Source: Infirmifilum sp. NZ
GTDB taxonomy: Archaea; Thermoproteota; Thermoprotei; Thermofilales; Thermofilaceae
Reading direction: 5' to 3'
NCBI RefSeq assembly: GCF_022693705.1
Contig: NZ_CP094288.1
Coordinates: 546,490-610,489, forward strand
DNA length: 64,000 bases
Below, piece after piece: positions 3,126 through 52,831 of this stretch (within the stretch, counting starts at the first letter, position 1; each line of letters starts with the position of its first letter). The notes below the pieces were generated by a model. The model was not told the DNA's origin. It did no database searches and saw only the letters and a list, made by a program, of their open reading frames with translations. A program made the translations under genes and the position numbers.

Positions 3126-5279
3126 CTAGCCCCAAGCCCTGAACTCGAAGCCCTCCACGCCCATGAAGCCCACGTAGCTCGGCGAGCCGGCTGGAGCGCA
3201 GCCGTACCTGGCTAGGATACCGCCGCCCGAGTCCCTCAGGATCACCTCCCAGAGCCCGGCTAGCGGCCTCACGTCGACCCAGTACGCGCCGGGGAAAGAG
3301 CCGATGTACAACTCGGAAGCCCCGCACCTGGCGTAGTAGTCCGAGCCGCTCCTCCTAGCGCCGAGGAGGGGCTGGAGGCTGGAGTCGAGCAGGTAGAAGC
3401 CGCCGTCCCCGGTGAAGCTACCCGCGTATACCACGGCTCCGGGAACGAGGGGCCTGTAGAACGTGCCGTCGCTGACACTCCACCCCCCAGGCAGGGGGGT
3501 GCACACCCTGTATGTTATTGTTAAGTCGTCCCACCAGACCCACAAGTCGTCTGCGGTGCCTGGAGCATTGCCGGACGCGTCAGTAACCGAGAGCGCTAAG
3601 GCCACGACGCTCCCGCTCTGGTTGAGGGGCAGGCTACCGCTCCAGGTGAAAGCGGTGTTGTTGCTTAAAGCGCCCAAGCTAAATACCTTGAAGCTAGGGT
3701 TTGAAGGGACGCAGGATCCGTCGCTGCCAACAGTGCATACAACGGTGCCAGGGCTTGCGAGCACCGAGACTATAGCCCCAGAGTAAGGGCTGGAGACCAG
3801 GTAGCGGTAAAAGATGTACTCGACATCCGCCACGCCGTCGCCGTTCGTGTCCACCCCCGCTGCCACGTAAGCCACGTCGTTATTCGCATCGGCGGAGCCG
3901 GACTTCGCGAAGAGACCCTTGACTGTGAAAGAGAAGTTCGCGGCGGGGACGTTACCCCACCTCGAGGCCACGTCGTACACCGCGGCGGAGACGCCGTAAT
4001 CGCTCACGGGGTTGCCCGTGGACGCGTAGGCATCCACCTCGGTTGCGACGCTCGGGGGTGTGGAGGGGCTCCGCGTGTCGTCGACGTACACCATCGTGTA
4101 CTCGTAGCCGCGCGTGTAGGCGCCGATGTAGCTGGGATTAGCGCACCTCTGAAAGGACACGTTGTCCCACCAGGCCTTCACCACTCCAGTCTGAGACCAC
4201 GCGGCAAGGGCCAGCCCCACTACGGCGCTCGTGCTGTACACCTGGCTTATACTCACGTTGATCCACACGTTAGCCTTGTTTGCGAAACCAGGCATTGACA
4301 GATTGACGGGGGGCAGGTTTCTCCCGTAGATGACGGGAGCGAGGGGGAGGGGGCTTGTGCCCCCACCGGAGCCGTAGTATATGACCTCGAGGTCTGGGCT
4401 TCCGTCGCCGTTCGTGTCCAGGAAGAAGTGGAGCTGGATGTAGTCTTTGTCCTGGAGCGAAGCCTTGAAGTAGTACTGGAGTGAGAACGGCGCCGAGGCG
4501 CTGAACGGCTGAGCCGAGTAGTCCAGGAAGAAAGCGGCGTAGCCTTGCTGAGACTCTGTGTAGAGGCTGGGCTCGGGCTTACCAATCGAGGAAGCCAAGT
4601 ACACCTGGCTTTTACCCGAAGTGTAATTCATGCTGTTAGGCGGGAGTGCGTCGAAGGTGTACTGGGTCGCTGTGCAGGCGTTGGCGAAGTCGTCGCTCCG
4701 GGTGTAGGCTGAGCAGGAGTAGCTCGCGCTACTGAGGAGGCTCATGGGCTGCGCGCTGAAGTTGATGTACTGCGCGACCTGCGCCGTCGAGACGGTGTAC
4801 CTGGCGGTGGTGAGAACCCAGTAGGTGCTGCTCGCCTGGCTCCTCCACACGATGCTCGCGGGGGTGGGGGCCGGGGGGCCGCTGCTCTGCGTGGTGGAGA
4901 GCTGGAGCGAGCCGCCGAGGTAGATCCAGTAGCTACCGCTCCCCCAGGACGCCTCGCGGTGCAGACTCGCCTGCAGGCCGGGAAGGCGGGGCGCGAGCGA
5001 GCCGACGGTGTACTCCTCGACCCAGCCTGGGACGAAGCGCAGGCTGTACGTCGTCACGTTGAGGCCATCCTTAGGGGCCCATGACGCGGAGGAAACCGGT
5101 AGTATGGAGGAGTTCCCGAGCTTCACGAGGGGGCTCTCCCTGGCCCACACCCCCCAGAGCGACGCGTTTATGATGATTACCGCCGCGAGCCCGCCGGCTG
5201 AGGTGAGCGCCAGAAGTAAAGCGAGCAGGGCTCGGGGGCGAGGAGCTGATTTAAAGGGGAGGCGCTCGCTGTCCCGCAT
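3126..5279 (-). CDS. Large secreted or anchored beta-rich surface protein with two DTNGDG modules
   Basis: A 717-residue extracellular protein. A basic N-terminus is followed by one hydrophobic segment (about residues 17-38), then Ser/Thr/Tyr/Asn-rich sequence. Two repeats each hold a calcium-loop-like DTNGDG (288-293 and 477-482), a Val/Tyr-rich strand, and a WWDN/WWDD motif (370 and 582) followed by a Cys. The region after the membrane segment (VWARESPLVKLGN, about 44-56) matches equivalent positions in the two surface proteins upstream on this strand, so the three share an architecture. Several NxS/T sites suit N-glycosylation. It is the last gene of the cluster and has its own GAACTAA-TATA promoter. 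It may be a minor, tip or adhesive subunit (inference). Confidence 0.8.
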   Translation of the reverse strand: MRDSERLPFKSAPRPRALLALLLALTSAGGLAAVIIINASLWGVWARESPLVKLGNSSILPVSSASWAPKDGLNVTTYSLRFVPGWVEEYTVGSLAPRLPGLQASLHREASWGSGSYWIYLGGSLQLSTTQSSGPPAPTPASIVWRSQASSTYWVLTTARYTVSTAQVAQYINFSAQPMSLLSSASYSCSAYTRSDDFANACTATQYTFDALPPNSMNYTSGKSQVYLASSIGKPEPSLYTESQQGYAAFFLDYSAQPFSASAPFSLQYYFKASLQDKDYIQLHFFLDTNGDGSPDLEVIYYGSGGGTSPLPLAPVIYGRNLPPVNLSMPGFANKANVWINVSISQVYSTSAVVGLALAAWSQTGVVKAWWDNVSFQRCANPSYIGAYTRGYEYTMVYVDDTRSPSTPPSVATEVDAYASTGNPVSDYGVSAAVYDVASRWGNVPAANFSFTVKGLFAKSGSADANNDVAYVAAGVDTNGDGVADVEYIFYRYLVSSPYSGAIVSVLASPGTVVCTVGSDGSCVPSNPSFKVFSLGALSNNTAFTWSGSLPLNQSGSVVALALSVTDASGNAPGTADDLWVWWDDLTITYRVCTPLPGGWSVSDGTFYRPLVPGAVVYAGSFTGDGGFYLLDSSLQPLLGARRSGSDYYARCGASELYIGSFPGAYWVDVRPLAGLWEVILRDSGGGILARYGCAPAGSPSYVGFMGVEGFEFRAWG

Positions 5280-5311: not shown

Positions 5312-5329
5312 ATATAAAGCTTTTAGTTC
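5312..5329 (-). promoter_or_regulatory. GAACTAA + TATA promoter of the 717-aa surface protein
   Basis: On the minus strand the motif reads GAACTAAAAGCTTTATAT: the upstream box is at 5323-5329 and the TATA box at 5312-5318, 33-39 bases before the ATG at 5279. The same box at similar spacing precedes five other genes in this window. Confidence 0.6.
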
Positions 5330-5383
5330 AGCGGGGGTCGAAGCCTGAGCGCGTTCTTAAAGGTGGGGCTGAGTTGCCCCGAG

Positions 5384-6835
5384 TTAAACGGAGAAGCTCC
5401 TCACAGTCAGGCTGACGCCTTTGACCTGCGCGAGCGGCGAGCCGGTCGTCAGCACGAGGTAGCCGTAGTAGGCGGGGGTGGCGGGTGTGCCCCCGGGGAG
5501 GTAGTAGTTCCTGCACAGCTCGACCACCGCGTGCGTGGCGTTGCCTAGAAGCCTGACTGGAAGCTGCCTGCAGAGAGTGGCGCAGGTGAGGCTTACGGTG
5601 TAGATCCCGTTGCTGGACCAGCTGGGCAGGTACCACTCGAGCGCGATGCCGCCCCTCACGGTCCCGGCCCAGAGGTAGGTGAGCGTGATGTTTGAGGCGG
5701 AGTAGGCGGTGAGGAAAGCCCTCGAGACGTAGCCCGAGGCGCCGCTGGTCCTGTACTCCCAGATGCCCCTGACGGGGCCCACGAGCACGGTGCTCCAGGA
5801 GCCCGGGTCGCTGTAGTACGTCTTCGCGTACTGGTAGGGCCAGGCGATCGAGCCCGAGAGGTTCACCTCGAGCCCACCTCCCCTGAAGCCCCACTGCTCG
5901 AGGCTGAGCCTCAGCGCCCCAGTGTCGACGGATGACCCGCTCTCCCTGACAGCGCCGGTGAAGTTGAGCTTGCCTCTGCCGCCCACGTAGATGTGTATCC
6001 GCGTGCTGTTCGAGACGTAGGCCACGAAGACCAGCCTGTCCCCCGCGCCGAGAAGCTCGCCGGGGCCCAGCAGCCTGACGGGCTTCAGGACCCCGGTGGC
6101 CTCCTCCACCCGCCAAGACTCCGCCTGGAAGGCGAGCGGGTAGTCCAGCCCCCCGATCCTCTCGACCACGAGCAGGGATGAGACATCGGTGCCGTACAGC
6201 GAGGGGATCAGGCCGACCTGCTGGCCGTTCACGTAGACCTCCCCGCTGCCCGCCACCTCGAAGACCGCGTAGCCCTCGCGCTGCACCGCCAGCGACAGCT
6301 CGAGCCGCCTGGGGTAGGAGTTGTCGTACCAGTCCGTGAGCCTGACGCTGAGCAGCAGCTCGCTCCTAGTCGCCCTCTCGACCTCGGGGGAGGACCTGTC
6401 CGCGACGATGAGCCTGGCGGTCTGGGGCCTGGCCGCTCTGAGGCACACGGTGAACGACGCGGAGGAGCCCGGAGGGAGCGAGAAGCCCCTCGAAGCGGTG
6501 CGGTTGCCCGACGCCAGGAGGACCGTCTCGTTGAGGCCCCGCACCTCCAGGTAGCCGTCGAAGCCCGCCAGCTCGAAGGCCAGCGTGTACGCGACGCCCG
6601 CCCTGCCCAGGTTGCGCACCGTCAGCGCGTTCGGGTAGCAGAAGGCGGTGTAGTTGCCCGACGCCAGCGTCACCGCCGACGCCGGGCTGCCCTGCCACAG
6701 CAGCTCGACGTCCCGGACGCCCCCGGCGAGCAGGGCCTGCAGGCCCAGGGGGTACATGAAAATAAGCACGAGGAAGACCGCGAGCGCGACGCCGACGAGT
6801 ACTCCGAGCTTAAGCCTACGATCCAACACGGACAC
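5384..6835 (-). CDS. Membrane-anchored or secreted surface protein, 483 aa
   Basis: A 483-residue protein with one hydrophobic segment near the N-terminus (about 10-30, GVLVGVALAVFLVLIFMYP), then a beta-rich exterior. Residues about 40-170 show a pattern typical of camelysin/TasA-like Ig sandwiches: LLWQGSP, LTVRNLGRAGVAYTL and LPPGSSASFTVCL. The middle (DWYDNSYPRRLELSL and the strands after it) loosely recalls DUF2341-type binding modules. Four Cys lie in the C-terminal third. It sits between the other two surface genes, and its own GAACTAA-TATA element lies in the 48-base gap after the upstream stop. Its role in a shared fibre or surface layer is inference. Confidence 0.8.
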   Translation of the reverse strand: MSVLDRRLKLGVLVGVALAVFLVLIFMYPLGLQALLAGGVRDVELLWQGSPASAVTLASGNYTAFCYPNALTVRNLGRAGVAYTLAFELAGFDGYLEVRGLNETVLLASGNRTASRGFSLPPGSSASFTVCLRAARPQTARLIVADRSSPEVERATRSELLLSVRLTDWYDNSYPRRLELSLAVQREGYAVFEVAGSGEVYVNGQQVGLIPSLYGTDVSSLLVVERIGGLDYPLAFQAESWRVEEATGVLKPVRLLGPGELLGAGDRLVFVAYVSNSTRIHIYVGGRGKLNFTGAVRESGSSVDTGALRLSLEQWGFRGGGLEVNLSGSIAWPYQYAKTYYSDPGSWSTVLVGPVRGIWEYRTSGASGYVSRAFLTAYSASNITLTYLWAGTVRGGIALEWYLPSWSSNGIYTVSLTCATLCRQLPVRLLGNATHAVVELCRNYYLPGGTPATPAYYGYLVLTTGSPLAQVKGVSLTVRSFSV

Positions 6836-6859
6836 CTGAGAAAAGGGGAAGAGAAAAAA

Positions 6860-6878
6860 TATTTAAGTTTTTTAGTTC
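6860..6878 (-). promoter_or_regulatory. GAACTAA + TATA promoter of the 483-aa surface protein
   Basis: The minus strand reads GAACTAAAAAACTTAAATA: upstream box 6872-6878, TATA box 6860-6866, 25-31 bases before the start codon at 6835. It begins six bases after the stop codon of the preceding gene, so this gene can be transcribed independently. Confidence 0.6.
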
Positions 6879-6883
6879 AGCGC

Positions 6884-7450
6884 TTAGCCGGTTGACACGA
6901 CGTCTACCTCGAACGTTATGAGCTCCTGGTTCGTCGGCGCGTCGGGGGTGACGAGCACCTTAACGCCGATGTCATCGCTGCAATGACCGGGGTCTATCGT
7001 GCCGAGCGGGATCGATGTCCCGCGGGGTGTCGTGCTGGTGATGTGCAACGTTTGTGAGGGACTGGAGCCGGGGTAGAGCAGATCGATGTACTCGATGTAT
7101 GTCCAGTCGCCGCTAATCGTCCCATTGTACTTCAGCGTTACGCTCACCGACTTGGTGTAGTTCTTGTTGCATATCTTGAGCACGCTCGTGTAGGTGGTCG
7201 GGTCTCCCTTGAAGCCGACGACGCTTATCCTGGTCCTGTTCGTGCCGTCCGATGCAGTGGAGCTGGTCACGTTGACGTAGCTGCCGGGCTTATTGCCTAC
7301 ATCACTGCCGGCGACCTTGACGACCGGGGATCCCTGCGCCATGACGGTCCACTCGGTTATGTTGACGAGGGTGACTGTTGCGGTGGCGAAGGCTACTATG
7401 GCCAGTGCGAGCAGCAGTGTGGCGATTGTTGTGCGCCTCGCTGTTTCCAT
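6884..7450 (-). CDS. Candidate extracellular fibre subunit (TasA/AbpA-like)
   Basis: A 188-residue secreted protein. The start is set at the ATG at 7450 (METARRTT): AGGTGG lies six bases upstream, and the GTG at 7480 falls only about 15 bases from the TATA box. A signal segment (ATLLLALAIVAFATATVTL) is followed by EWTVMAQGSPVVKVAG, matching both larger cluster proteins, and then a Thr/Ser/Val-rich beta domain with paired Cys (KICNKN and GHCSDD) and a final strand ITFEVDVVSTG. Size, signal peptide and beta-sandwich pattern resemble the TasA and Pyrobaculum AbpA donor-strand fibre subunits. That assignment is inference, since no homology search was possible. Confidence 0.75.
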   Translation of the reverse strand: METARRTTIATLLLALAIVAFATATVTLVNITEWTVMAQGSPVVKVAGSDVGNKPGSYVNVTSSTASDGTNRTRISVVGFKGDPTTYTSVLKICNKNYTKSVSVTLKYNGTISGDWTYIEYIDLLYPGSSPSQTLHITSTTPRGTSIPLGTIDPGHCSDDIGVKVLVTPDAPTNQELITFEVDVVSTG

Positions 7451-7486
7451 GGCTTCCACCTGTCGGTTAGGGGTCCACACCCCTGC

Positions 7487-7504
7487 TTATAAACTTTTTA
7501 GTTC
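7487..7504 (-). promoter_or_regulatory. GAACTAA + TATA promoter of the fibre-subunit candidate
   Basis: The minus strand reads GAACTAAAAAGTTTATAA: upstream box 7498-7504, TATA 7487-7493. A start site about 25 bases downstream gives a short leader carrying AGGTGG before the ATG at 7450. Confidence 0.65.
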
Positions 7505-7519
7505 AGAATCAGGGGAGGA

Positions 7520-8386
7520 CTAAGCCGTCAAAACCGCCTTGAGCTCTGAGGGCCTGCAGCCCTTGGCCAGCATGGCGCGTATCCTGTACTCGTTCCTCCT
7601 GACGTGCTCCGGCCCCACCCTGACCCCGAGCTCCCGCTGGGCGAAGGCGGGTAGCCACTCGTGGAGCTGCATCTCCGCTGGGTAGTAGAGGGCTTTCCTC
7701 GCGAGGCTCGCCCTCGCCACTAGGCCCACGCGCTCGAGGACTGAGAGGTGCCACTGGACCTCGCCGAAGCTGATCCCGAGGTCCCTGCTGATCGCCCGGG
7801 GGCCGGCTCCGGGGTTCTTCCTGATGTACTCGTAGATGAGCCTCCTCCTGGCGTTCTCGAGGACGTTCTCCCTGCTGACGAGCGCGTAGGCGACGGGGAT
7901 GGAGAGGGCCTTGAAGGCCAGGTCCCTGCCCCTCTCCGTCAGGGAGAGGTACGAGGCCGCCCCCACCGCCGCGGCCGCCGCTAGTAGGCCTACGGGCAAC
8001 TGCGCGGGCTGCTCCTCTAGGGGCTGCGCCCGGACCTGGAGCTCGAGCCGGGTGAACTGGGGGGTTGGGTTGGAGGCCGTTGCGTAGATGCAGTGGAGCG
8101 ACCCCTCGCGAGCCACCCTTACTTGGGCTGCGCTGGAGGAGGCTTCGACGCTGGAGGCGTTCGCGACGCAGGCTACGCGCGCGTCGTCGAGGAGCGTGTA
8201 GGGCGGGAGGGTTAGCGTCACCGTGAAGCTCGTCGAGTTCGGCACGCCCAGCGCCGAGGCGCGCGGGTCCAGTACGAGGAGCGCGGGGCTAGCCTGCAGC
8301 ACGGCTGGCTGGCGTAGAACGAGGGATACGCCCAGAGCTAGGGTTGCGAGTACGGCGAGGAGGGCTCGGGGGTCTCTGGGCGTCAT
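7520..8386 (-). CDS. Membrane-tethered winged-helix regulator with external beta domain
   Basis: A 288-residue protein with three parts. A signal-like N-terminal segment (ALLAVLATLALGVSLVL) leads to an external beta-rich domain (about 30-125, with two Cys). A second hydrophobic stretch follows (LPVGLLAAAAAVGAASYL, about 128-146). A cytoplasmic winged helix completes it (about 175-245: ENARRRLIYEYI, GPRAISRDLGISFGEVQWHL, VGLVARASLARKALYYP). The layout suggests a regulator that senses the envelope and binds DNA directly. It is first in the surface-protein cluster and has the same promoter element as its neighbours, so it may control them and itself (inference). Confidence 0.8.
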   Translation of the reverse strand: MTPRDPRALLAVLATLALGVSLVLRQPAVLQASPALLVLDPRASALGVPNSTSFTVTLTLPPYTLLDDARVACVANASSVEASSSAAQVRVAREGSLHCIYATASNPTPQFTRLELQVRAQPLEEQPAQLPVGLLAAAAAVGAASYLSLTERGRDLAFKALSIPVAYALVSRENVLENARRRLIYEYIRKNPGAGPRAISRDLGISFGEVQWHLSVLERVGLVARASLARKALYYPAEMQLHEWLPAFAQRELGVRVGPEHVRRNEYRIRAMLAKGCRPSELKAVLTA

Positions 8387-8418
8387 GCCGGCGCTCTACA
8401 AGCATCTTTGCTTGGGGA

Positions 8419-8437
8419 TTTATATTCTTATTAGTTC
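8419..8437 (-). promoter_or_regulatory. GAACTAA + TATA promoter of the membrane-tethered regulator
   Basis: The minus strand reads GAACTAATAAGAATATAAA: upstream box 8431-8437, TATA 8419-8425, about 33-39 bases before the ATG at 8386. It overlaps the last codons of the upstream 108-aa gene. Confidence 0.6.
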
Positions 8438-8746
8438 GAATCCCGGTGGGCGCAGAGGGGCTAGCTCGGGCCACACCTGGTACGCCTTGCCGCGCAGCAC
8501 GAGGATGAGGCGGAGGGGGTTGCGATGTACGAGCAGGTAGGGCGGCGTGGCGATGGGCTCCAGCGTCACCTCGACGTTCACATCGCTCCTCCTGAGCAAC
8601 TCGTAGATCCTCTCGGCGAGTGCAGCAGGGGGTAGCTTCTCGGCCTCCGCCAGGAGCTCTTTCATGCGGTTTCTAAGGACGATGCTCACCTGCAGAGCCA
8701 GAGGGCTGTCGACGAAATCGAGCTTCGAAGAGAGTGTGGGCGCCAT
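8420..8746 (-). CDS. Small protein of unknown function, 108 aa
   Basis: A 108-residue protein with two charged amphipathic helices (about 20-50) followed by beta strands (VEVTLEPIATPPYLLVHR, LRLILVLRGKAYQVW). There is no membrane segment or recognisable motif. It ends inside the promoter of the downstream regulator gene. Codon use fits the region, which supports it as real. No function is suggested beyond proximity to the surface-protein cluster. Confidence 0.6.
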   Translation of the reverse strand: MAPTLSSKLDFVDSPLALQVSIVLRNRMKELLAEAEKLPPAALAERIYELLRRSDVNVEVTLEPIATPPYLLVHRNPLRLILVLRGKAYQVWPELAPLRPPGFELIRI

Positions 8747-10645: not shown

Positions 10646-11107
10646 CTACAGCTCGGTCCCCTTATGCCCTGAATTCTTTTGAATCGCTATCACGCAGTGC
10701 GCCCCGTCCCTCCTCGTCCCCTCGAGGTCGGGCTTGAGGCCCGCGAAGCCGGCGAGGAGCCCGGGAAGGGGGCAGAGCCTCCCGGAGAGCTCGAGGCCTC
10801 CGACAGCCTTGGGGCATATCCTGCACGTTCTCGTCACGACCTTGATGTAGTAGTGGTCGTCGCGGTCCTCGACCTCCACGGAGCCCGCGAGCTGGAGGAG
10901 GTCCGTGGCTCTCCTCAGGGCCTCGAGGGGGTCTGCGGGCCTCCCGTAGATCTGGGACAGCCTCTCCCCCACTTTCTGCATCGAGGACGTGACTATCGCG
11001 TAGTTCAGCACACCTTCCTCTCTGAACGCGGCCAGCGCCGATGCCACGAAGGCGTGGAGGGGGGTAACTTTGCGCTCCTCGAGGCTCAGGGCGACCGCCG
11101 AGAACAT
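10646..11107 (-). CDS. Cys-rich CPLPG-family protein, copy 1
   Basis: A 153-residue protein with an N-terminal helical part (about 10-70) and a C-terminal Cys cluster: TCRICPKAVGG, then CPLPGLLAG 14 residues on, and a final Cys in AHCVIAI. The pattern C-x2-C...CPLPGL...C suggests metal or cofactor binding. A second copy lies at 52379-52831 with the same order and clear similarity in the helical half (EEGVLNYAIV against EEGILKYAIV). I do not recognise the family by name. This copy has an ordinary TATA promoter (TTATATAA around 11115) without the GAACTAA box. Confidence 0.75.
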   Translation of the reverse strand: MFSAVALSLEERKVTPLHAFVASALAAFREEGVLNYAIVTSSMQKVGERLSQIYGRPADPLEALRRATDLLQLAGSVEVEDRDDHYYIKVVTRTCRICPKAVGGLELSGRLCPLPGLLAGFAGLKPDLEGTRRDGAHCVIAIQKNSGHKGTEL

Positions 11108-51138: not shown

Positions 51139-51507
51139 CTATTCGCTGATCAGGGCGAGGCTTCTGCCCTCCTTAAGTATCTTCACGAGCACGCCGCGGA
51201 GGATCTTGCACGCCTCCCTGAGCTCGGGGTACCTGAGCTTGTAGTACACCTTTGTGCCCCTCCTCTCGGACGTCACTATGCCGAGCTGCTGCATGTAGGC
51301 GAGGTGCCTCGAGACCACGGGCTGAGGCTCGCCCGTAAGCTCGACAAGCTCTGAGACGTTCCGCTCCTGGCTCTCGAGGAGTTCGAGCAGCCGTAGTCTC
51401 AGCGGATGGCTCATGAACTTGCACAGCCGGGCTTGCAGCTCAAAGAGCCTCTCCTCCGGTACCTCCTCTGTGCCACTCACATTTGAAAGAAAGGGAGATA
51501 TATACAA
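51139..51507 (-). CDS. ArsR-family transcriptional regulator
   Basis: A 122-residue winged-helix protein: ARLCKFMSHPLRLRLLELLESQE, NVSELVELTGEPQPVVSRHLAYMQQLGIV (recognition helix), RRGTKVYYKLRYPELREACK (wing). It has no obvious Cys-based metal site, so it may not be a metal sensor. It lies eight bases after the beta-protein gene and shares its GAACTAA-TATA promoter, so it is in the same transcript and could be the regulator of that element (inference). Confidence 0.9.
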   Translation of the reverse strand: MYISPFLSNVSGTEEVPEERLFELQARLCKFMSHPLRLRLLELLESQERNVSELVELTGEPQPVVSRHLAYMQQLGIVTSERRGTKVYYKLRYPELREACKILRGVLVKILKEGRSLALISE

Positions 51508-51515
51508 ATATGTTT

Positions 51516-51914
51516 CTATCCGCGTAGAAGGGGCCTCGGCGCCGCCTGCTCGATCGGCGCTGCCTGCTCGAAGGACACCCTAAGCGAAACGGAGGAAGCG
51601 CTGGCCATAGCTAAGCGCGGGGGAGCCACAACCGTGAATCTTAGCGTGACCTTCCCCTTAGGCGGCACCTGGAAGCTCCACGACTCACCGCTCCTCGTGC
51701 TCCTCCCGATGTAAACCACTTTGCCGTTAGCCTCGACTTTGAGCACAAGGGGCGCTGGGGACCACTCTGCTCCGACGAGCTCCAGCCTCAGTTTGGCTGG
51801 TCGCGGCTCTCGGTTCTCGACGGCGACGCTGCTCTCGCCCACCACGGGCACTAGCAGCTCCTCCCCGTTGATGTTCAGCCTTACGTTCACGTAGGAGCCC
51901 CGCACATCTATCAC
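51516..51914 (-). CDS. Beta-rich protein of unknown function in the GAACTAA regulon
   Basis: A 132-residue protein made of strands (YVNVRLNINGEELLVPVVG, SSVAVENREPRPAKLRLELVGAEWSP, APLVLKVEANGKVVYIG, GKVTLRFTVVAPP), resembling a single beta sandwich. It has no N-terminal signal as read from GTG 51914; that GTG is about 27 bases after the TATA box, so it is a leaderless start. The C-terminus holds a short repeat (QAAPIEQAAP). First gene of a two-gene transcript with the ArsR regulator. Confidence 0.7.
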   Translation of the reverse strand: MIDVRGSYVNVRLNINGEELLVPVVGESSVAVENREPRPAKLRLELVGAEWSPAPLVLKVEANGKVVYIGRSTRSGESWSFQVPPKGKVTLRFTVVAPPRLAMASASSVSLRVSFEQAAPIEQAAPRPLLRG

Positions 51915-51937: not shown

Positions 51938-51959
51938 TTTATAAAGGATTTAGTTCAAA
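51938..51959 (-). repeat. Inverted copy 1 of a 22-base element containing a GAACTAA + TATA promoter
   Basis: The minus strand reads TTTGAACTAAATCCTTTATAAA's first part as GAACTAA (51950-51956) and its TATA box at 51938-51945. It drives the 132-aa beta-protein gene. The identical 22 bases recur in the opposite orientation at 52083-52104, 123 bases away. Confidence 0.75.
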
Positions 51960-52082: not shown

Positions 52083-52104
52083 TTTGAACTAAATCCTTTA
52101 TAAA
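52083..52104 (+). repeat. Inverted copy 2 of the 22-base GAACTAA + TATA element
   Basis: Identical, in inverted orientation, to 51938-51959. GAACTAA is at 52086-52092 and TTTATAAA at 52097-52104, about 34 bases before the ATG at 52138. The pair form a divergent promoter region for the two operons on either side. Confidence 0.75.
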
Positions 52105-52137: not shown

Positions 52138-52374
52138 ATGATTGGATTAAGAGTGCTTCGCGTGAGGTGCCCAAAGTGTAACGGTCAAATTCTGACAGAA
52201 ATAAGGCCGGAGGTTATGCTTGACGCTAAAAACTCACCTTCAGGACTAACTGCAGTCGCCGTTCCCCACAGTGACCATGTCCTTTTGATATATATTGACG
52301 CTAACGGTCATATGAGAGGATTAAGAGTGGCAAACATCGTTCCAGCGGAAGTCCTGGAGAGCGAAATAAGGTGA
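52138..52374 (+). CDS. Small zinc-finger-like protein, 78 aa
   Basis: A 78-residue protein with one CPKCNG pair near residue 11, followed by a beta-rich part: LTAVAVPHSDHVLLIYIDANGHMRGLRV. The single CxxC plus two His in HSDH could bind one metal in a dimer or by pairing these residues. GGGAG lies upstream of the ATG. The 150-aa CPLPG protein starts four bases after its stop, so the two are made together. Family unnamed to me. Confidence 0.75.
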   Translation: MIGLRVLRVRCPKCNGQILTEIRPEVMLDAKNSPSGLTAVAVPHSDHVLLIYIDANGHMRGLRVANIVPAEVLESEIR

Positions 52375-52378
52375 GATT

Positions 52379-52831
52379 GTGGTCGCAGAGAGCGTTCTCA
52401 AAAGAGGTATCCAGCCTCATCACTACTTCATAGCCAGGACAATTATGTCATTCTGCGAGGAAGGTATTTTGAAGTACGCAATTGTGAGGAGCGCCATGTA
52501 TAGAGTGGGTAAAGGTCTTCGAGAAGCCTACGGAGGCCCGAGTGATCCAGTTAAGGCAATTGAGTTCCTGAATGGACTTCTGGGCTTCACGGGAAGGCTT
52601 GAGGTCATTCGGGAAGGTGCTGTAGTCAAAGTTACTGTGGATCGCGCGACCTGTAAAATGTGCCCGAGAATCATCGGTGGCACGGAGCTAACAGAGCCCT
52701 TATGTCCTTTGCCCGGTCTGCTAAGCGGTTACTTAGGTGCTAATCTAAAAGGCTCGAGTTTTCAAAGAGACTGGCAGACTTGCGTAATAAATCTAAACCT
52801 AGAGTCATTGCAAAACAGCGCAGAGGCGTAG
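52379..52831 (+). CDS. Cys-rich CPLPG-family protein, copy 2
   Basis: A 150-residue paralogue of the protein at 10646-11107. Shared features: HHYFIARTIMSFCEEGILKYAI at the N-terminus, GLREAYGGPSDPVKAIEFL, then CKMCPRIIGG, CPLPGLLSGYLG and a final Cys in WQTCVINL. Conservation of the Cys pattern in two copies argues for a bound metal or cofactor. It starts at GTG, downstream of the zinc-finger-like gene and under the GAACTAA-TATA promoter. Copy 1 lacks that promoter element. Confidence 0.78.
   Translation: MVAESVLKRGIQPHHYFIARTIMSFCEEGILKYAIVRSAMYRVGKGLREAYGGPSDPVKAIEFLNGLLGFTGRLEVIREGAVVKVTVDRATCKMCPRIIGGTELTEPLCPLPGLLSGYLGANLKGSSFQRDWQTCVINLNLESLQNSAEA

Follow-up and report, generated by a model that had tools for sequence, protein, structure and literature searches.

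Several known activator boxes of archaea are placed upstream of a weak B recognition element (BRE). In Sulfolobus acidocaldarius the ups-box, A(N)TTTC, is a non-palindromic motif at -44 to -39 (PMC5817253). In Methanococcus maripaludis the sites of EarA, each 6 bp long, directly adjoin the BRE of a surface-filament operon on its upstream side, and this activator is thought to aid transcription factor B (TFB) on a weak BRE, and the ara-box is another activator box upstream of a weak BRE (PMC5512572). Surface filaments can also be controlled from the membrane, as ArnR and ArnR1 are membrane-anchored one-component transcription factors acting on the promoters of several of them (PMC6396743). Here we report a promoter element, GAACTAA followed by a TATA-like sequence, in a 64,000-nucleotide window (the whole stretch analysed: positions 546,490 to 610,489 of contig NZ_CP094288.1, forward strand) from Infirmifilum sp. 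NZ (genome G000; other G numbers denote the genomes compared with it). The element is real and conserved, belongs to a known kind and precedes an unexpected set of genes, and its extended form YGAACTAAA is probably an activator site at the upstream edge of the BRE that co-controls a small surface and adhesion regulon.

The regulation of Thermofilum-type archaea is almost unstudied, and the literature searched contained nothing about what turns on bundling (AbpA/TasA-like) pili in archaea. No earlier description of the box was found there either, and looking for archaeal mentions of GAACTAA yielded nothing of relevance.

A composite promoter element before the pilus genes

Four minus-strand copies of GAACTAA, each followed by a TATA-like element, precede the genes that begin at 8386, 7450, 6835 and 5279, as an earlier note on this DNA had claimed. 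Box 1 (8431-8437, followed by the TATA-like AATATAAA) belongs to the gene of REG (7520-8386, minus strand), a membrane-anchored winged-helix protein of 288 amino acids (aa) with homologues in the abp clusters of Thermofilum and Pyrobaculum. This box, the most upstream of the four, lies with its TATA element within the 3′ end of an upstream 108-aa open reading frame (8420-8746) that is kept in G005 (53%). Box 2 (7498-7504, followed by TTTATAAG) is in the promoter of an AbpA-like bundling pilin gene (6884-7450, minus strand; 188 aa, with an alternative GTG start at 7459), and its product is homologous to the pilin domain of 7UEG chain A (phmmer, E 1.2e-20 over residues 12-176 of 188). Box 3 (6872-6878, followed by CTTAAATA with the TATA-like TTAAATA) precedes the gene of a 483-aa surface protein (5384-6835, minus strand), which has one N-terminal hydrophobic segment by hydropathy and for which a Pfam search gave no family above cut-off. 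Box 4 (5323-5329, followed by TTTATATT) precedes the gene of a 717-aa surface protein with an AbpA-like N-terminal segment (3126-5279, minus strand; E 3e-9 for the N-terminus of its G002 orthologue). The earlier list was incomplete, as the remaining two heptamers of the window, at 51950-51956 on the minus strand (followed by CTTTATAAAG) and at 52086-52092 on the plus strand (followed by CTTTATAAA), are also box promoters, for a divergent gene pair.

The composite GAACTAA-N3..7-TWWAWA occurs at six distinct sites in the window (seven rows, one site being counted twice) against 0.02 expected from dinucleotide shuffles, none of 100 of which reached six. The bare heptamer is unenriched, with six copies against 6.5 expected, and this chance-level frequency rules it out as a signal by itself. 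In pattern searches of the whole genome, a single contig of 1.83 Mb, the heptamer occurs 50 times, and the composite at nine distinct sites (ten rows) against one for the pattern read backwards. When 30 of the heptamers were checked singly, the majority lay within long reading frames without a TATA element behind them; the promoter-like ones were the six window sites and those at 176025 and 456417, with 928826 doubtful. A site at 928817, ahead of an aIF1A-like gene, and several GAACTAG matches were judged to be chance occurrences, with either the spacing or the base before the G being wrong. The earlier note would have given up its proposal had the motif been as frequent in coding sequence and non-promoter gaps as before genes; the composite withstands that comparison but the bare heptamer does not. 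One could still suppose a functionless coincidence of AT-rich promoter sequence or coding overlap, given the abundance of the bare heptamer and the location of box 1 inside a reading frame. The shuffled sequences, the backwards pattern and the comparison between species already refute this for the composite, and we give it practically no credence.

Conservation and geometry of the box

Every one of the seven Thermofilum genomes has the box, and it also occurs in further genera of the family. Upstream of orthologous genes it is kept while the flanks have diverged, which bears out the view that the copies do not stem from a recent duplication. The AbpA gene has the box in six genomes (G000, G041, G005, G003, G002 and, from another genus, G015), and G004 has the variant CTAACTAA in its place. 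The box of REG is kept in G005, and in G003 it stands before a unit formed by REG and a four-helix membrane protein. That of the 483-aa gene is kept in G041, G005 (as GAACTAG) and G003, that of the 717-aa gene in G041, and the same divergent pair of boxes occurs in G041 and G005. The order REG, AbpA, 483-aa protein, large protein recurs in G005, G002, G004 and G015; in G003 REG lies 12 kb from the pilin. Orthologues of the 483-aa protein follow the pilin gene in G005, G002, G003, G004 and G015, and the 717-aa protein has orthologues in G002, G015 and Pyrobaculum. The idea that every gene has its own copy holds for this species, including G041 for the pilin, 483-aa and 717-aa genes, but in several relatives the 483- and 717-aa protein genes lack a box of their own. 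Common control, as first suggested, is supported.

Across the genus, GAACTAA-N2..6-TTWAWA was found 32 times against once for the backwards pattern, and a looser composite gave about 63 rows against 10 for the same control. With the first base left free (AACTARA-N-TATA), G was still present in 13 of 15 matches, and the G is therefore not part of the general BRE. The consensus over 35 sites is T-Y-G-A-A-C-T-A-A-A-N3-4-TATA, with the core YGAACTAAA. Sites were gathered with GAACTA as an exact query, which makes these six positions invariant by definition; the adjacent Y and AAA, the distance to TATA and the gene families are independent of that choice. All 35 sites share one orientation. Counted from the G of the box, the TT of TATA comes at +10 to +13, and of the 32 sites that could be classified 28 have it at +11 or +12. 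This is a short conserved motif adjoining the BRE at near-fixed TATA spacing, as in the activator-box class. The position just upstream of the BRE and the activator-site reading, both considered in the earlier note, are supported. Start codons mostly lie 40-55 nucleotides (nt) behind the G of the box, as in leaderless or near-leaderless messages.

At these loci an ordinary promoter carries A at positions -5 to -3 and G at -2, counted from the TT. In box promoters the run of A is shifted upstream into the box, and positions -3 and -2 are less constrained: in a small set, G at -2 occurs in 7 of 32 box promoters against 18 of 33 ordinary ones drawn by rule (p 0.01), and A at -3 in 12 of 32 against 20 of 33 (p 0.08). 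In the placement of the box this layout is that of the ups-box, EarA sites and ara-box, activator boxes upstream of weak BREs; the BRE next to the present box may likewise be weak. We infer a protein bound to the box, an activating effect and a signal behind it. A sequence-specific activator would occupy YGAACTAAA where it borders the BRE on the upstream side, one helical turn or so ahead of TATA and some 40-55 nt upstream of the start codons of these near-leaderless genes, and would recruit TFB and the TATA-binding protein to promoters with a suboptimal BRE. The genes of the AbpA bundling pilus would thereby be switched on jointly with those of REG, its four-helix membrane partner and an MscS-like channel, with a P132-ArsR operon and with a small number of other genes.

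The same geometry bears on a reading raised in the earlier note, that of a variant BRE recognised by an alternative TFB. Each of the seven genomes of the genus indeed encodes a second TFB that diverges fast, and nearly all genomes of the order have two TFB-like matches; the box is asymmetric with nearly fixed orientation and spacing, and its TAAA half overlaps the normal BRE. However, GAAC falls about 8-13 bp upstream of the TATA TT, for the most part outside a BRE of 6-7 nt (PMC5512572), and positions -4 to -1 are not fixed, so that variant bases do not fall within the 6-7 nt next to TATA where an alternative TFB would be expected to read them. Moreover, identity of the second TFB between most genera is only about 25-30%, whereas the box has not changed, and no box was seen in the stretches inspected upstream of its gene. 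The box geometry thus disfavours an alternative TFB, which we consider improbable. The second TFB of this genome is encoded at G000:C1:887012-887866, and in several genomes its orthologues stand directly behind the apparent end of a Gar1-like frame.

Genes behind the box

Families were defined by the reading frames behind all sites, which were then compared with each other. The strongest link of the regulon is TM176, a four-helix membrane protein found behind the box in G000, G041, G005, G003 and G002. Its gene adjoins REG in G002, G003, G004, G015 and the Pyrobaculum genome G036; in G000, where the TM176 frame is partly masked, it is found at 176 kb, some 370 kb distant from REG, with the box retained. 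P132, a 132-aa protein (51516-51914, minus strand), is behind the box in seven of seven genomes of the genus, and is followed in this one by the gene of an ArsR-family winged-helix protein of 122 aa (51139-51507, minus strand; Pfam HTH_5, E 3.9e-12). The promoter of this operon holds the minus-strand box at 51950-51956. An MscS-like channel (PF00924) is behind the box in four genomes of two genera (G000, G002, G004 and G013) with 65-80% protein identity. Both the P132 and the MscS boxes sit far from any pilus gene.

The plus-strand box of the divergent pair precedes ZN52, a 78-aa CxxC protein (52138-52374, plus strand) without a Pfam match, a relative of which is behind the box in G041. The second gene there encodes a 150-aa cysteine-containing protein (52379-52831, plus strand) of no Pfam family, relatives of which immediately follow the box in G003 and G013; it has a paralogue (39% identity) at 10646-11107, near the pilus cluster and without a box. 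In G013 the box precedes the gene of a roadblock/LC7 protein (Pfam E 5e-7), to which short proteins of G001 and G004 may be related, with weak similarity only, and a 107-aa membrane protein is behind it in G008 and G011. The regulon is thus more than an envelope cluster, contrary to the reading of the earlier note, and also reaches the P132-ArsR operon, the MscS-like channel, the roadblock protein and others, to which the box ties the pilus. Elsewhere in the window, a PIN-domain protein (1252-1886) with a small overlapping upstream frame resembles a VapBC toxin-antitoxin pair.

Candidate readers and comparison with known systems

REG may be one reader of the box. As in ArnR, a membrane anchor of two hydrophobic stretches (residues 6-24 and 132-150) is combined with a winged helix-turn-helix (wHTH) domain at residues 180-240 (PF24266, E 1.4e-10), and the gene is 92% identical in the same-species genome G041. 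A dedicated, ArnR-like one-component regulator binding the box at its own gene and at the pilus genes would explain why REG has its own box and why it lies in the abp cluster of G000, G005, G002, G004 and G015, and of the Pyrobaculum genomes G036, G027 and G030. Furthermore, in its recognition helix an invariant VQWH is preceded by SFGE in Thermofilum and by GWGA in Pyrobaculum, residues differing as the boxes differ, and the membrane-bound ArnR regulates several surface filaments of Sulfolobus (PMC6396743). The remote P132 and MscS boxes speak against this proposal, as do G008, G011 and G013, which are 91-95% complete and use the box while their matches to REG cover the wHTH domain only. Box use in those three genomes excludes REG as sole reader, although it may read the box at the pilus genes alone; on balance we regard the dedicated role as possible but doubtful. 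Each of the three encodes a wHTH protein of about 300 aa with C-terminal hydrophobic segments (L344 in G008, L353 in G011, L350 in G013), a candidate reader in genomes that use the box without REG. Two other candidates, the ArsR-family protein (51139-51507) and a soluble REG-like wHTH protein (G000:C1:1381852), are weakened by the failure to find an orthologue of either in G002.

These gaps in the distribution of REG and of the other two candidates weigh against the activator proposal. So do the slightness of the BRE-weakness signal in its small, rule-drawn comparison set, the possibility that TAAA, within the box, acts as the BRE, and the presence in G002, G004 and G015 of some cluster genes without a clear box. 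A further consideration is that a protein bound at the same position could repress: it would block TFB and silence the pilus genes until some signal released it. A site adjoining the BRE can equally shut TFB out, and the ArsR family, one member of which stands behind a box in this window, consists mostly of repressors. Set against this, the core of the box sits farther out than the BRE and does not cover it or TATA, and boxes are kept in G002, where ArsR was not found. We consider repression unlikely. Whichever protein reads it, the defined cis-element and short gene list make the control of the pili testable, and the box could be used as bait for isolating the regulator.

The locus resembles the AbpA bundling pilus system of Pyrobaculum calidifontis (7UEG) in its pilin homologue and in the linked large surface, four-helix and wHTH proteins, but the Pyrobaculum clusters have CAACGTTG instead of GAACTAA at the same place. 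In the abp clusters of Pyrobaculum (L098, L100 and L101) the pilin and REG genes have this common palindromic box just before TATA, specific to abp loci, and CAACGTTGAATATTTAA is common to both genes at the same position. All matches to the Pyrobaculum box with 0-1 mismatches in G036 and G027 (four and three, respectively) are at abp loci. Since the pilus boxes of the two families differ in sequence and share a position, they are lineage-specific. A more speculative extension, to which we attach a low probability, is that every lineage possessing bundling pili has a BRE-adjacent operator of its own in this position (GAACTAA in Thermofilaceae, CAACGTTG in Pyrobaculum), and that these operators co-evolve with a membrane-anchored winged-helix protein and a four-helix partner that would sense a surface or envelope signal and control pili directly from the membrane. 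If true, lineage-specific operators and a membrane winged-helix protein would constitute a novel class of one-component switches for surface sensing in archaea. REG is like ArnR and ArnR1 in being membrane-anchored, but differs in that its wHTH domain is C-terminal, behind two hydrophobic stretches.

The box is not the Sulfolobus ups-box itself, being YGAACTAAA ahead of abp and other genes and not A(N)TTTC ahead of ups and tfb3 genes. The sequence differs, and the ups genes encode ultraviolet-inducible type IV pili whereas those here are of AbpA type. The ups-box is found on 214 Sulfolobus genes (PMC5817253), compared with about eight box genes here. Like EarA sites, the box stands immediately upstream of the BRE of surface-filament genes (PMC5512572), with one copy per promoter at many promoters, in contrast to four copies ahead of a single operon in that case. 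In its arrangement it is like the ups-box: a short non-palindromic motif directly upstream of a BRE that is weak there and may be weak here, at each promoter of a pilus cluster and at unlinked genes (PMC5817253).

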